Of a DNA stretch of 64,000 nucleotides, positions 47,161 to 52,248 are shown in pieces. The DNA comes from Alicyclobacillus sp. SO9 (lineage in GTDB: Bacteria; Bacillota; Bacilli; Alicyclobacillales; Alicyclobacillaceae). The notes under the pieces are model-generated. The model was not told where the DNA came from. It did no database searches and saw only the letters and a list, made by a program, of their open reading frames with translations. Both the position numbers and the translations under genes were made by a program. The stretch lies in the NCBI RefSeq assembly GCF_016406125.1, contig NZ_CP066339.1:3410001-3474000 (forward strand), read 5' to 3'. Within the stretch, counting starts at the first letter, position 1; every line of letters starts with the position of its first letter.

Positions 47161-47191
47161 GAAAAAAGACGAACTCGATGGACGAGTTCGC
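47161..47191 (-). terminator. Terminator after the PDO gene
   Basis: A perfect 8-bp stem CGAACTCG / CGAGTTCG with loop ATGGA (plus strand), followed on the minus strand by CTTTTTTC. It separates the rhodanese-PDO unit from the aminotransferase gene. Confidence 0.9.
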
Positions 47192-47252
47192 CGTTAAAAG
47201 GGGATTGGTTTCTTACGCCGACTCAGACTTTCAACTGAATGTCCAAGTCGTT

Positions 47253-47909
47253 TTATGAACTGGCAACCACCTCCATGATTTTTTCCAATAACATATTCTC
47301 CGGTGCCGCTCCTTCAAGCGAATTGGCCTCAGAGTTATTGATAATGGTTTTTGGAACGCCATAGACATTAAACTCACTTGCCCAATCTGGGAACTCCTGT
47401 GCCTCCACCATGTTTGCGTGAACCATACCTGATTCAAAAGCAAATTGGTGAGCAAGGTGAACCGCAGCCGGACAGTAGGGGCACGTCGGCGTAACAAATA
47501 CGGACAAGTCCAAAGCAGACGTCAAGCCCGACAATTGCTTCTTTGTCTCCTCCTGTAATCCAGAATCACCTCTAGACAACATTAGGATGTCCTCGAGCAG
47601 CGTTGCAAACTCGTATCCGCTCGGTGCACCGTAGAACCAGACACCATAATCCTTTTTCGAATCATCGGAAATCATGGCAGCAGGAACTTTGTTCACACCC
47701 ATCTCCTTGACCTTGTCCTCGTCAGCATAAAGGTTGTATACCTCGAGGGTGAGAAGGTCTGATAGGGCTGTCAGTTCTTCATATAACTGACGAACCTCTT
47801 GACAAGTCTGGCATTCTAAACTGGATTCTACATACTGGATAACAACAGGGTTTTTCAACTCTTCAAAGCGTTCCTTAATGGCCTTCTGGTTGCTTTCAGA
47901 AATCAACAT
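47253..47909 (-). CDS. Protein disulfide oxidoreductase (two thioredoxin folds)
   Basis: A 218-aa cytosolic protein made of two tandem thioredoxin/glutaredoxin folds. Active sites are C33-QT-C36 in the first and C143-PY-C146 in the second, the CPYC being glutaredoxin-like; the cis-Pro loops VNKVPAAM and VYGVPKTI are both present. This PDO architecture is typical of thermophiles and acts in disulfide exchange and reduction. It is encoded just after a rhodanese and shares its promoter, which fits handling of persulfides. Confidence 0.9.
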   Translation of the reverse strand: MLISESNQKAIKERFEELKNPVVIQYVESSLECQTCQEVRQLYEELTALSDLLTLEVYNLYADEDKVKEMGVNKVPAAMISDDSKKDYGVWFYGAPSGYEFATLLEDILMLSRGDSGLQEETKKQLSGLTSALDLSVFVTPTCPYCPAAVHLAHQFAFESGMVHANMVEAQEFPDWASEFNVYGVPKTIINNSEANSLEGAAPENMLLEKIMEVVASS

Positions 47910-47951: not shown

Positions 47952-48335
47952 TTATTTCTTAACAGGACCACTCCAACGGCTCATGCCGCCGGACAGGTTA
48001 TAAATAGCTTCCATCCCAGCTTTTTTGGCAATCTGTGCAGCTTTCATGCTGCGGTTTCCACTGCGGCACACGAACACAATTTCTTTATCCTTAGGAAGAT
48101 CAGCGAGACGATTTCGTAAACTTCCGAGGGGAATGTTTTTCGCTTTCGAGATGTGCCCCCCTGAGAATTCAAAGGGTTCACGTACATCCACCACATGTAG
48201 TGATTGCGGCTTCTGTTTGAGCTTTGACTGAAGTTCTCCAGGTTGAATCGTCTGAATACCCCCGGCTCCTCTGCGACTCCACAGAAACCAACCTACCACT
48301 AAAACCACTAGAACAACCCAAATCCACGTCTGCAA
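47952..48335 (-). CDS. Membrane-anchored rhodanese-like sulfurtransferase
   Basis: A 127-aa protein. The first helix (about 2-19) is a membrane anchor with the domain probably cytosolic. The rhodanese active loop is C90-RSGNR (IVFVCRSGNR), so persulfide formation on C90 is expected; DVREPFEFSGGHI is the usual first signature. TTG start with GGAGG seven bases upstream. The promoter has a CsoR/CstR-type operator in its spacer (see 48412-48440). Together with PDO it forms a two-gene unit. Confidence 0.9.
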   Translation of the reverse strand: MQTWIWVVLVVLVVGWFLWSRRGAGGIQTIQPGELQSKLKQKPQSLHVVDVREPFEFSGGHISKAKNIPLGSLRNRLADLPKDKEIVFVCRSGNRSMKAAQIAKKAGMEAIYNLSGGMSRWSGPVKK

Positions 48336-48411: not shown

Positions 48412-48440
48412 TTTATATACCCCTATGGGTATGTTGTCAA
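48412..48440 (-). promoter_or_regulatory. Promoter with CsoR/CstR-like operator, rhodanese-PDO unit
   Basis: -35 TTGACA at 48440-48435 and -10 TATAAA at 48417-48412, 17 bp apart. The perfect palindrome ATACCC-CTAT-GGGTAT (48417-48432) fills the spacer. An operator between -35 and -10 is the usual repressor position. This palindrome is the operator type of the CsoR family, which includes the persulfide sensor CstR controlling rhodaneses. Confidence 0.75.
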
Positions 48441-48557
48441 GGGAGTACATGGCAAATAATCACAGACAAAATCCCGCGTTTGAACACGGGATTACGTGCT
48501 TCTTCGCTGGCGATGTCCCGCCATTTTCCTGAGCATCACCATACAGCAACTGAAACG

Positions 48558-48845
48558 TCAGCAAATGCCGCCAAACGGAGAGTCAATTCTAAGCTGCCGT
48601 CCAAACCAGGTCTTTGGATAGTCAATCGTGACGCTCTCCATCATATACGCAAAGTGTTTGGCAAACACAAATTTGATTCCGTCAACTTCCTGTACTACAT
48701 CTTCATCTGAGATGGTCTCATCCAGAGCCATACCATATTGAGGTCCGCCTCACCCTGCCGAAAGGTACAGACGCAACTGTGCTGCTTGTTCCTCTTCGAG
48801 GACTGAACGCAAATAGTCATTTGCAGCAGGTGTTACTTGAATCAT
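48558..48845 (-). CDS. HesB/IscA-like protein with in-frame UGA, putative selenoprotein
   Basis: A frame of 95 residues with UGA at codon 32 (48752-48750). Before it: MIQVTPAANDYLRSVLEEEQ, then LYLSAG-U-GGPQYGMALDE, which is where HesB-family proteins have their first conserved Cys (AGxCGGP). After it the frame stays intact for 63 codons and ends in DSPFGGIC, with C95 as the retained C-terminal cysteine. A strong GGGGGG seven bases before the ATG supports expression. A hairpin 18 nt after the UGA resembles a bacterial SECIS element. HesB-like proteins are a known bacterial selenoprotein family. A nonsense mutation is the alternative. Fe-S or persulfide chemistry is the likely role. Confidence 0.8.
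48712..48731 (-). promoter_or_regulatory. Putative SECIS element in the HesB-like gene
   Basis: RNA hairpin AUGGCUC-UGGAU-GAGACCAU, seven base pairs with one bulged A and a five-base loop with G at position 2. The loop begins about 25 nt after the UGA, within the range known for bacterial SECIS elements. Confidence 0.6.
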
Positions 48846-48870: not shown

Positions 48871-48886
48871 ATACCCGAGCGGGTAT
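48871..48886 (-). promoter_or_regulatory. CsoR/CstR-like operator upstream of HesB-like gene
   Basis: Perfect palindrome ATACCC-GAGC-GGGTAT, with the same half-sites and N4 spacer as the one in the rhodanese promoter. It is placed downstream of the -10 and 25 bases before the start codon of the HesB-like gene. Confidence 0.75.
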
Positions 48887-48897
48887 ATTCAGTTCCA

Positions 48898-48926
48898 ACT
48901 TTAGGGGGCCGTCTTCAATTTGTCAA
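48898..48926 (-). promoter_or_regulatory. Promoter of the HesB-like gene
   Basis: -35 TTGACA at 48926-48921, a 17-bp spacer and -10 TAAAGT at 48903-48898. It starts directly past the stop codon of the large BTAD regulator gene, so the HesB-like gene is a separate transcription unit. Confidence 0.6.
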
Positions 48927-48928
48927 TA

Positions 48929-51900
48929 TCACACGAGTTGTTGAAAAACCTCTGTTGTGGCAGGCATGGGCTCCACTCCCAACTCTCGTCGCAGGACTTG
49001 TTCACATTTGTGGTATGTCTGAATAATCATAGAGCGGTTAAACATTGCTCCGTGAATTTTCATCATAAGTATGTACGCGTCTTCCCACACGAGTTCAGAT
49101 TTAACTATTCTTTCACAGATTGCTAAAGCCTCCTCATACTCTTGGTCCGCGTAACAGAGATTGGCGTATTCCATCGACCTCTGAATAAACTCCAAGCGAA
49201 GCTCTGTCCGCTCCTCTTCGCACCATAGTTCGTACTTTGCTTCAGGCAGGTATTCTCCTTGGTACAGAGCCATGAGCGACTTTAGTATGACTTTCTTGCT
49301 TTTTTTGCTGTCAGCGGAGTCGACTGACGCCGCCATGCTTTTAAAATTGTCTTTGTCGACCTGGAGTATAGCCTGCTTGGTAAGCGCATACATGGACCCT
49401 CTGCGAGCGATAAAAACACTCGGTCCCCGCCCTGGCTTATCCGGCTCGAGAACCGTTGATAAGGCGTGCAACGCAACCTTAAAGTCCCGCTCTGCGGCGT
49501 CAGGAGAGAGGTCTCCCCACAGTTGCTCACAGACCTCTTCTCGGTGCACATAAACTCCTCGATGTGTGAGCAAGAACAGAAATAATTGCCGAGCTTTCTC
49601 GCGCGGCCACTGGCCATGAGCAATCTCTGCAAACCCGCGCCACACACGCAGTCCTCCCAAAGTTTGCACACGAAGCGTATAGCCTGGGTGATAATCCAGT
49701 TCAGCACTGTCCAGATTGTCAAGCAATTGTACTGCTCGCCTCTGCTCCATACCATGCACACGGTGAGCACGAAGCAGCGGTACGAAAGACTGCACGTCAC
49801 GTAAACCGCAATAAGTCGGTCTCTCCAGCAGAAATCCCCAGTGGCGGCGCTCTGTTTCGCACAGGACTTTGGCCACATCCTCATGGCACCTGCGGTTGTC
49901 CACGCGATGCAAAGCCAGTGCGCGCCAAATGCGTGCTGCCGTTTCCAAGAACGCGTCTGTGCAATGCTGAAATTGTGCAATACTGACGGTCAATTGCTCG
50001 GCGGCAGTGTCCATATCTCCGTTGATAACAGCTGCTTGGCCAAACCCAAGTCTGACAAGGCTGGCCATCCATATATCGCCCGCGTGTTCTGCAATCCTGA
50101 TGCCTTCATTGGCATAGGATTTTGCCAAGACATACTGCTTTCGATATCCGTGTGCCAAACACAGCCCTAAGAAGGCCTCAGATTTACCGCGGGGTATTTC
50201 CATGTCATCCATTTGCGATACGGCCTGTTGATAAAGGTTGAGCGCTCTGTCACCCAACGGGTCTGCCAGGTGTTCGGCGTGTCCCAATCTAATGAACCCG
50301 ACTGCACTGACAAACGGAGAATGAAGTGACTGTCCCAATCCGTGTCCGAATTCTGCTTGACGTTGCGCCTCGTCAATCTCGCCCCGCATGACGTACATTA
50401 AGGACAAGAGCAGTGTGCCTTCTCGATGTGCCAAAGCGGAACGCTCATCGGCACCGTCAATTTGCACCCTTGACCTCATGAGCGTAATAACTTCCGATAT
50501 TTTTCCCGTTCTTAACAGCATTCTGGCGTCCATGTTATTGGTTGAAAGTGCAACATCGGTACTTTCCCGCAACACAGCAGCAATCCGATTGGCTCTGCCG
50601 ACAGACGCAGAGTTAATACTGTTTTCCAAAGCCAGTTGAAGTACTGTGAGCCGCAGCACGCGGTTCTTGCGCGGAACCAGTTGCCGTGCCGCAAGAATAT
50701 GCGGATGTGCATGGGCTGGTTGAATGGTGTCGAGATACAGACGTGCGCGTCCAATTTCCACTTGGATTTGAATCCATTTATCATCACGTATAAGCGCTTG
50801 TTCCTCGGACATCTGATACAATTCCAAAGCATCTGAAAATTGATTGACATGGCGAAACATCTCAGCTTTGGCATGAAGCAAAGCAGGCGACGATTCTAAG
50901 ACAGAGAGATGAACGCGGTCGAGCCAACTCCGTACTGTTGAAATCTGGCCCCGATGAAGATAACGGTGAATATACGGCGCCAAAGCATTTCCAGCATGCT
51001 CTTTATTGGACAAGAAAAACAGGTACGACACTGCACGAGATTCTTCACCTCGTTGCAAGTGCCACAGAATGGCTGTCTCAACCAACTTTTCCTGCTGAGA
51101 GGGGCTCAGGCTTGCCAGCAAATAGTCTCGGACAAGAGGATGCAGTTCATAGCTGATACCGTCTTCCGAAAGATTGATGTGCCCCCTTTTCTCCAATTCA
51201 GACAGGACCAGTTCGCTGTCAAGTCTGTGCAGTGCCTGATTGCATAAATCCGGATGTAACATGGGGAACAAACTGGTATTGCGCAAGAACTCCTGCTGGA
51301 GAGTTGTGACGCCCTCGAGGAAGAGTCGACCAATCCGTTCTGTAAGTGAAGCCGTGCCGGACAGAGCGGCACGCAACCGGTGATATGAACCATGCTGCAT
51401 CCAGTCACGTAACAGCATGGACAGTACCATAGCCATACCCCCGGTCCTCTTCATAACTTCACGGATTTCTGTGCGCTGAAGATACCGTTGATTGGCGTTT
51501 TCCAACGGCTGGTTTTCTTCTAACGACTGGCCCTTAGCAGCCAACAGAGTTCCTTCGTGAAACAAAAATCCGATTTCATCTTCCGTAAAAGCCAATTCAC
51601 GGCTTTGAATCCACAATGCGTCATCAGCTAAAGTGAGGCTCTCCACAAAGGGGAGGCACGGACTAGTCCGTGTAACTATAACCATGTGTATTGACGGAGG
51701 CAAGCGTCGGTGCAAACAGTCGAACCATGCCATTACCGCCTGGTCATCATCCAGCAGATGAAAATTGTCAACCACCCAAACCTCGTCTTGAAGCAGCGGC
51801 GCATTCTGGACAGCGTTCCCAGCCGATTCAGCGGAGTGAATCCAGGTAAACGTTGAATGCGCTTGGGCAATAATTTCATCTCTTTGTGCAGCATCAACGT

Positions 51901-52177
51901 AGGGCTTTAGTACTGTGCTGCAGAAACGTTCGACAAAACAGACGCTGTCCTTATCCTGCTCACGAACTGTAAACCATCTTGCTGGCAACCGACTCTGCGT
52001 CAGATACGCACGTACGGCCGTGGTCTTACCGTAGCCTGCACCAGCTTTGACAACAGTAGTAAAGACAGAAGGGATGTCAGACAAAAGACTCATCAGCCGT
52101 GGACGCGGCACCTCGATGCCGCGCAATCTGGAGAAGGCGGACATGCGCGCACCTTGCCACTCGCCTTGTATTCCCAT
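48929..52177 (-). CDS. Large regulator: P-loop ATPase, TPR region, C-terminal BTAD (SARP-like) domains
   Basis: A 1082-aa protein. The N-terminal Walker A is VVKAGAGYGKTTAV (about residue 45) with the DEVWVVDNFH Walker-B-like region following, as in MalT/LuxR-type STAND ATPases. The middle is alpha-helical TPR-like. The C-terminal part has a winged-helix (VQTLGGLRVWRG, REKARQLFLFLL, LWGDLSPDAA) and the BTAD repeat to the end. It is a transcription factor whose N-terminal sensor probably binds an inducer. I start at ATG 52177 with GGAGG six bases upstream. It is the last gene of the transporter-hydrolase-dehydrogenase run and probably regulates it. Confidence 0.85.
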   Translation of the reverse strand: MGIQGEWQGARMSAFSRLRGIEVPRPRLMSLLSDIPSVFTTVVKAGAGYGKTTAVRAYLTQSRLPARWFTVREQDKDSVCFVERFCSTVLKPYVDAAQRDEIIAQAHSTFTWIHSAESAGNAVQNAPLLQDEVWVVDNFHLLDDDQAVMAWFDCLHRRLPPSIHMVIVTRTSPCLPFVESLTLADDALWIQSRELAFTEDEIGFLFHEGTLLAAKGQSLEENQPLENANQRYLQRTEIREVMKRTGGMAMVLSMLLRDWMQHGSYHRLRAALSGTASLTERIGRLFLEGVTTLQQEFLRNTSLFPMLHPDLCNQALHRLDSELVLSELEKRGHINLSEDGISYELHPLVRDYLLASLSPSQQEKLVETAILWHLQRGEESRAVSYLFFLSNKEHAGNALAPYIHRYLHRGQISTVRSWLDRVHLSVLESSPALLHAKAEMFRHVNQFSDALELYQMSEEQALIRDDKWIQIQVEIGRARLYLDTIQPAHAHPHILAARQLVPRKNRVLRLTVLQLALENSINSASVGRANRIAAVLRESTDVALSTNNMDARMLLRTGKISEVITLMRSRVQIDGADERSALAHREGTLLLSLMYVMRGEIDEAQRQAEFGHGLGQSLHSPFVSAVGFIRLGHAEHLADPLGDRALNLYQQAVSQMDDMEIPRGKSEAFLGLCLAHGYRKQYVLAKSYANEGIRIAEHAGDIWMASLVRLGFGQAAVINGDMDTAAEQLTVSIAQFQHCTDAFLETAARIWRALALHRVDNRRCHEDVAKVLCETERRHWGFLLERPTYCGLRDVQSFVPLLRAHRVHGMEQRRAVQLLDNLDSAELDYHPGYTLRVQTLGGLRVWRGFAEIAHGQWPREKARQLFLFLLTHRGVYVHREEVCEQLWGDLSPDAAERDFKVALHALSTVLEPDKPGRGPSVFIARRGSMYALTKQAILQVDKDNFKSMAASVDSADSKKSKKVILKSLMALYQGEYLPEAKYELWCEEERTELRLEFIQRSMEYANLCYADQEYEEALAICERIVKSELVWEDAYILMMKIHGAMFNRSMIIQTYHKCEQVLRRELGVEPMPATTEVFQQLV

Positions 52178-52248
52178 TATTAACCTCCCCCCGATTGCTT
52201 CTTTTTCGTGGTCACAAGCTGTGGTCAACTGTTCCGTTTAACTTGTCC

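Follow-up and report, generated by a model that had tools for sequence, protein, structure and literature searches.

The gene at 48558..48845 (minus strand) of the 64,000-nucleotide stretch of Alicyclobacillus sp. SO9 DNA analysed here (the window) is best explained, in full, as encoding a HesB/IscA-like selenoprotein of a CstR-type sulfane-sulfur regulon, a reading we consider probable. HesB-like selenoproteins themselves are already known; what is new is the regulon setting of this one, and neither the CstR-type operators nor the sulfane-sulfur setting figured in the preliminary description of the locus, which had proposed a selenoprotein.

The HesB frame and its in-frame UGA

The frame runs from an ATG at 48845, with a purine-rich stretch immediately 5′, to a TGA stop at 48558 (95 codons) and contains a single internal TGA at codon 32 (48750..48752, minus strand), where HesB/IscA proteins carry their first conserved Cys. 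The translation around U32 reads LYLSAG-U-GGPQYGMALDE, and 63 codons follow the TGA. The preliminary description had given the frame, its coordinates, the codon-32 TGA and the length of the downstream part exactly, without mention of the minus strand. Because both halves of such genes are short, HesB-type genes with UGA are likely lost by automated annotation. The terminal TGA was considered as a second Sec codon and rejected, since the stop varies across the 36 related loci, window included (TGA in 13, TAA in 13, TAG in 10), and it is thus an ordinary stop.

With Cys substituted for Sec, the product passes the Pfam gathering cut-off for Fe-S_biosyn (PF01521; 41.4 versus 26.3 bits). The top NCBIfam model, NF038090 (IscA_HesB_Se), scores under its cut-off (52.9 to 53.4 versus 85 bits), as does TIGR01911 (HesB_rel_seleno; 21.7 versus 66.35 bits, with the same substitution), and NF038090 matches all 36 HesB homologues at E values up to 1e-5. 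An AlphaFold2 model of the product (pLDDT 90.4) was assigned the IscA fold by Foldseek (1r94, TM 0.84), with a weaker match to DsrR (2k4z). The A-type Fe-S carriers (IscA/SufA/ErpA) have three cluster-binding Cys residues, the last two arranged as C-x-C near the C-terminus; of this set the window protein has only U32 and C95, and the C-terminal Cys is missing from three of the 36 homologues (G280, G304 and G442).

The genome of the strain (G000; 5.29 Mb, two contigs; coordinates below refer to its contig C1 unless stated otherwise) encodes a complete selenocysteine machinery. All four genes that the preliminary description had named for a search are present: selA (C1:3293344, 559 bits), selB (C1:669027, over cut-off), selC, the tRNA-Sec gene (C1:3373023, 63.9 bits, anticodon TCA), and selD (C1:3770106), itself with a UGA (SGUGCK). 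FdhA is represented by four genes over cut-off, one of which has a TGA (NRTUHAPSV). That a selenoprotein would be unusual in such a host, as had been supposed, is only partly borne out: selA occurs in 13 of the 41 family genomes examined, this one included.

Conservation of the codon was followed in own genome plus 100 relatives and in a wider draw from the phylum. Since 33 aligned loci of other genomes share an in-frame TGA at the equivalent codon (further, more distant loci do so as well), the UGA is not a chance occurrence. A HesB-type match with one internal TGA was found in 29 of the 101 genomes; in 28 of these, own included, the TGA lies at the first-Cys codon, and all 28 have selA, which is present in 48 of the 101 overall (hypergeometric p = 2.4e-12, relatedness ignored). 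The 29th genome, G037, has no selA and carries its TGA at another codon: this is a CC-type HesB gene (G037:C1:1317955) with an in-frame TGA where relatives have Arg, and represents a broken copy or a sequencing error. In the selA-negative G028 the Sec codon is replaced by TGT, in line with the earlier statement that relatives have Cys there, and two genomes of the same genus (G010 and G021) have TGA together with selA. The profile is matched at E values up to 1e-18 in 21 of 398 phylum genomes, that of the strain among them, and 20 of the 21 matches have one TGA; the 20 newly fetched loci of this draw have U at the Sec codon in 19 cases and Cys in one (G103). A reading of UGA as Trp or as a stray stop was ruled out, as UGA tracks selA in the 101 genomes. 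The complete machinery, the conservation of the UGA, its co-occurrence with selA and the Cys exchange in G028 all support the original proposal that UGA is read as Sec, and we regard decoding of codon 32 as selenocysteine as almost certain.

The window, its nearest relatives and the phylum draw together gave a set of 36 HesB loci in which the Sec or Cys codon was located (34 Sec, 2 Cys), and this set underlies the operator and hairpin counts below. Eighteen further loci with weaker TGA matches, those of a GUGGV/GUGGM type among them, were read at the codon and excluded from those counts. A second Sec-HesB subfamily (L147, L149–L156) has PGUGG(V/M)R..(L/I)(A/T)LDE or a similar motif and occurs mostly in order-level relatives. 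When the contigs of the named genomes were scanned with the Sec position back-translated as Cys codons, only four archaeal loci emerged. A Sec form of a true A-type carrier was also met in G070 (contig C32; L158:475–822), with UGA at the first Cys (GGUSGFSYG ... SCGCGSSFRTA) and a score over the NCBIfam ErpA cut-off (127 versus 117 bits, Cys for Sec).

A bSECIS-like hairpin, AUGGCUC-UGGAU-GAG(A)CCAU with a bulged A, lies at 48712..48731 (minus strand), 21 to 40 nt past the first base of the UGA, and has a G in its apical loop, a known feature of bacterial SECIS elements (PMC1794560). Single-sequence folding of the window hairpin was no better than that of shuffles (z = −0.62), so the element was judged from the family alignment, and it is at this level that a hairpin 3′ of the UGA was found. 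A gap-free alignment of the 54 nt from the UGA was obtained for the 34 Sec loci, that of the window among them; on it, RNAalifold predicted a stem of 5 bp capped by a UGGAU-like loop, with one pair changed on both sides. In a 7-bp version with hand-chosen pairs, 89.2% of the cells are paired, compared with 22 to 47% at offsets of 1 to 3 columns. None of 500 shuffles (0.130 ± 0.014) reached its covariation score of 0.179; at an offset of +1 the score was still 0.117, and neither doubly changed pairs (2 versus 1.6) nor pair types (6 versus 6.9) were above shuffles. Two of the seven named pairs are open in 11 and 12 of the 33 distinct rows, and one is kept in 32 of the 34 loci, the exceptions being G.A mismatches in the window and G045; the window hairpin can form AUGG/CCAU and CUC/GAG around the bulged A. 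G229 has U-A in place of the inner C-G pair, which turns a nearly invariant Glu into Lys.

Operators and sulfane-sulfur genes

Upstream of the selenoprotein gene, a promoter-like TTGACA-17-TAAAGT (48898..48926, minus strand) has 10 of 12 matches, although this class of site is found three times in the stretch compared with 2.6 expected by chance. Just downstream of it lies operator 1, ATACCCGCTCGGGTAT (48871..48886, minus strand), with perfect 6-bp arms. The gene is followed on the same strand by a terminator-like hairpin (48470..48493), by a single-domain rhodanese with a hydrophobic N-terminus and a TTG start (47952..48335; Pfam Rhodanese, 5.6e-22), and by a protein disulfide oxidoreductase (PDO; 47253..47909) with CQTC and CPYC motifs (TIGR02187, 262 bits versus a cut-off of 185), behind which stands another terminator-like hairpin (47168..47192). 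The rhodanese/PDO pair has a promoter-like TTGACA-17-TATAAA of its own (48412..48440, minus strand), recognised by direct reading of the sequence; the promoter scan demands T at position 6 and therefore does not contain it. Operator 2, ATACCCATAGGGGTAT (48417..48432, minus strand), occupies the 17-nt spacer of this promoter, its last base being a base of the −10 element. Both sites are perfect palindromes of the form ATACCC-N4-GGGTAT, so that two exact CsoR-family type-2 operators stand at two promoter-like sites; within one mismatch, two sites were seen in the window compared with 0.07 expected. A 1099-residue MalT/BTAD-type regulator (48929–52228) is encoded, likewise on the minus strand, immediately 5′ of the selenoprotein gene.

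Across the genome the operator has four exact and 15 one-mismatch sites, 19 in all; some of these are chance matches, because the reversed control pattern has six. Fifteen of the 19 sites were inspected, and seven of the 15 precede sulfane-sulfur genes or a CstR-like gene. Besides the two in the window, before the selenoprotein gene and before the rhodanese/PDO pair, sites were found at C1:510695, with TauE behind DsrE2-like and TusA-rhodanese genes, at C1:522650 (a second rhodanese), at C1:3662971 (a DsrE-family gene), at C1:1519981 (a CstR-like gene) and at C1:1162735, where an MBL-rhodanese gene diverges from a glutaredoxin gene. We call the MBL-rhodanese protein CstB-like by its domain content, no named NCBIfam model passing its cut-off. 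A further site, C1:1161494, adjoins the CstB-like gene, yet does not stand in front of it, and the exact operator at C1:4154105 (L060:6105–6120) has no recognised target gene adjoining. The reported targets of CstR are genes for a rhodanese, a sulfite exporter or an SQR (PMC10318464); rhodanese and TauE genes are found here, and no SQR gene was seen at the inspected sites of this genome.

A candidate repressor is encoded at C1:1520189, with a one-mismatch operator 5′ of its gene. This CsoR-family protein has two Cys residues, the second within ENMQYC, and Asn before the second Cys, at which position the three copper-type CsoR proteins of the genome have His. Two Cys residues and no metal-binding His are the signature of CstR. 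A fifth member of the family (L082; C1:4590774) is CstR-like with its first Cys missing (QRDHDDVVNQL); there is no operator within two mismatches in 3.2 kb around it, and it is perhaps a re-purposed CstR-like copy.

The operator recurs in front of HesB genes of relatives. In the stretch from −300 to −90 relative to the Sec/Cys codon (34 Sec and 2 Cys loci, window included), it is present exactly at six of the 36 loci, within one mismatch at 11 and within two at 15. Dinucleotide shuffles of these stretches gave means of 0.002, 0.024 and 0.43 (maxima 1, 1 and 3 in 500), and the reversed pattern gave 0, 0 and 2. The carriers are partly close kin, four exact sites being in one family (f110), and are spread over several clades with at least five changes on a quick, poorly resolved tree (19 of 37 inner branches open) that was used only for this purpose. 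A CstR-like gene is found at five of 15 HesB loci from relatives, within about 2 kb in four and about 7 kb away in one. Sulfane-sulfur genes (rhodanese, TauE, CstB-like, CoA-disulfide-reductase-like or SQR-like) or CstR-like genes lie within about 5 kb at nine of 16 loci (those 15 and the window's). Since 21 of the 36 loci have no operator within two mismatches in the −300 to −90 stretch and seven of the 16 were found by eye in other settings (five beside fumarase-like and/or lysA-like genes, two near nrdR-like genes), the HesB protein also works in contexts other than the CstR-type regulon.

The HesB gene directly follows a partial SelB-matching frame in four genomes, G372, G417, G101 and G395 (100, 100, 46 and 44 bits, respectively; cut-off 242), and a one-mismatch operator lies between the two in G372, G101 and G395. 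Near the HesB-Sec gene of G045, an oxidoreductase (L065:9171–10385) resembles the "type III sulfide quinone reductase, selenoprotein subtype" (249 bits, cut-off 525).

Other UGA-containing genes are found under the same operator or beside HesB. The glutaredoxin divergent from the CstB-like gene (81 residues; C1:1162790–1163035, L059:5790–6035) has a UPQC active site, shares one exact operator with that gene and is a second selenoprotein of the presumed regulon. An internal TGA is present in 16 of its best 19 matches (own included), eight being confirmed at UPxC, and, by raw count, an operator lies shortly 5′ in seven of the 19 within one mismatch and in 10 within two. PDO homologues of G001, G054 and G267 (L068, L067 and L129), encoded at or near the HesB gene, have UGA in VTPT-U-PYC and are, as judged from this motif, likely selenoproteins. 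A 2026 review already includes both Sec glutaredoxins and Sec rhodaneses (PMC13188914).

Proposed mechanism and alternative explanations

We propose that SelA, SelB, SelC and SelD would insert Sec at codon 32, guided by the hairpin about 20 nt downstream, giving a full-length 95-residue selenoprotein of IscA/HesB fold. The operators and the genes that they precede make CstR-type control of the selenoprotein gene likely: a CstR-type member of the CsoR family would repress both promoters from ATACCC-N4-GGGTAT, and sulfane sulfur (persulfide or polysulfide) would modify its cysteines and release it. The product would then work together with the rhodanese and the PDO encoded behind it. A direct sulfane-sulfur role of the HesB selenol has about even chances; Sec32, paired with Cys95, would probably take sulfane sulfur from persulfides or from a rhodanese and pass it on or, alternatively, selenol-bound sulfur might be reduced by the PDO or by the Sec-glutaredoxin, whose gene has the operator as well.

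An iron-sulfur role is the chief alternative: the product would be an ordinary HesB-like selenoprotein of Fe-S assembly, Sec32 and Cys95 would bind iron or a cluster, and the sulfur-gene neighbours would reflect only sulfur supply for clusters. The IscA fold, the Fe-S_biosyn assignment, the top match to IscA_HesB_Se and the existence of a clear Sec-form ErpA in G070 all agree with such a role, but the C-terminal C-x-C is down to one Cys, with none in the three homologues named above, no isc or suf gene was recognised by eye in the window or in the relatives' contexts, the operator connects HesB to sulfane-sulfur genes, and the genome holds a separate HesB-type frame without a stop (G000:C1:1802181). 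We consider this explanation rather unlikely. A reading of the gene as a 31-residue stub, in which a pseudogene or a sequencing error makes the UGA a true stop, has the lack of protein-level evidence as its only support and is contradicted by the retention of the frame at the 33 aligned loci with UGA at the equivalent codon and by the full agreement of UGA with selA presence, the selA-negative relative having Cys; its probability is negligible.

A further explanation assigns the operators to copper CsoR, so that the Sec protein would serve copper stress. The arms of the Streptomyces CsoR type-2 operator, ATACCC-N5-GGGTAT, are identical to those of the window sites (PMC3902906), those of the S. 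aureus CsoR operators are similar (PMC10233261), and the genome has three copper-type CsoR genes. However, in 3.2 kb at each of the three copper-type csoR loci no operator is present within two mismatches, whereas the CstR-like locus has one; no copper transporter was seen by eye beside the 15 inspected sites, which are adjoined by rhodanese, TauE, DsrE, CstB-like and CstR-like genes. A copper function is, accordingly, improbable. Two reports count against the CstR-type assignment itself: the consensus bound by a CstR-like protein of Thermus is another one (PMC10318464), and S. aureus CstR is said to have a single operon, not several, under its direct control (PMC5480029).

Returning to the CstR-type regulon, a broader and tentative idea is that selenocysteine serves as a tool of sulfane-sulfur defence, in which one CstR-type switch would govern interchangeable Sec effectors (HesB here, the UPQC glutaredoxin elsewhere in the genome, the UPYC PDO in relatives) whose selenols might outpace cysteine in taking up or stripping sulfane sulfur. 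The switch could possibly sense selenium also, because CstR cysteines react with selenite too (PMC5016687), and synthesis of these selenoproteins would then be restricted to conditions of dangerous sulfur or available selenium.

Relation to known systems

HesB-like proteins were correctly named in the preliminary description as a recognised bacterial selenoprotein family; 11 were counted in a 2006 survey (PMC1794560), and a 2026 review tabulates their UxGP motif (PMC13188914), present here as U32-G-G-P. No role for them was seen in the accessible text of either source, and the main text of the review contains neither "persulfide" nor "sulfane". A literature search, whose scope mostly excluded subscription papers, found no published link of selenoproteins to CstR, and in the sources reached only cysteine desulfidase work joined the terms selenoprotein, sulfane sulfur and operon. 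The conserved operator ties the HesB selenoprotein to persulfide sensing and so gives it a directly testable role. If correct, bacterial selenoproteins would be connected with CstR-type reactive-sulfur sensing, and this link might help to explain why Sec persists in certain genera of a family in which selA is mostly absent.

The window protein shares with the HesB-like selenoproteins described by TIGR01911 and NF038090 the IscA/HesB fold, Sec at the first conserved Cys, UxGP, a length of about 100 residues and the genomic Sec machinery. It differs in falling under both model cut-offs and in its single C-terminal Cys, and its gene adds the CstR-type operator and the rhodanese/PDO partners. With the A-type carriers IscA, SufA and ErpA it has the fold (1r94, TM 0.84) and the sequence superfamily in common; in contrast to them, it has Sec as the first Cys and one Cys in place of C-x-C. 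The IscA-like DsrR of Allochromatium vinosum (2k4z), which is without Sec, is a clear match in fold and a weak one in sequence. DsrR is encoded with sulfur-oxidation genes and reportedly lacks the cluster-binding cysteines. The S. aureus cst operon (tauE, cstA, cstB, sqr) shares with the present genome a CstR-like repressor and rhodanese, TauE, MBL-rhodanese and DsrE/TusA genes (PMC5480029; PMC10318464), but here the genes are distributed over several small operons, and the presumed targets include selenoproteins, namely HesB, the glutaredoxin and, in relatives, the PDO.
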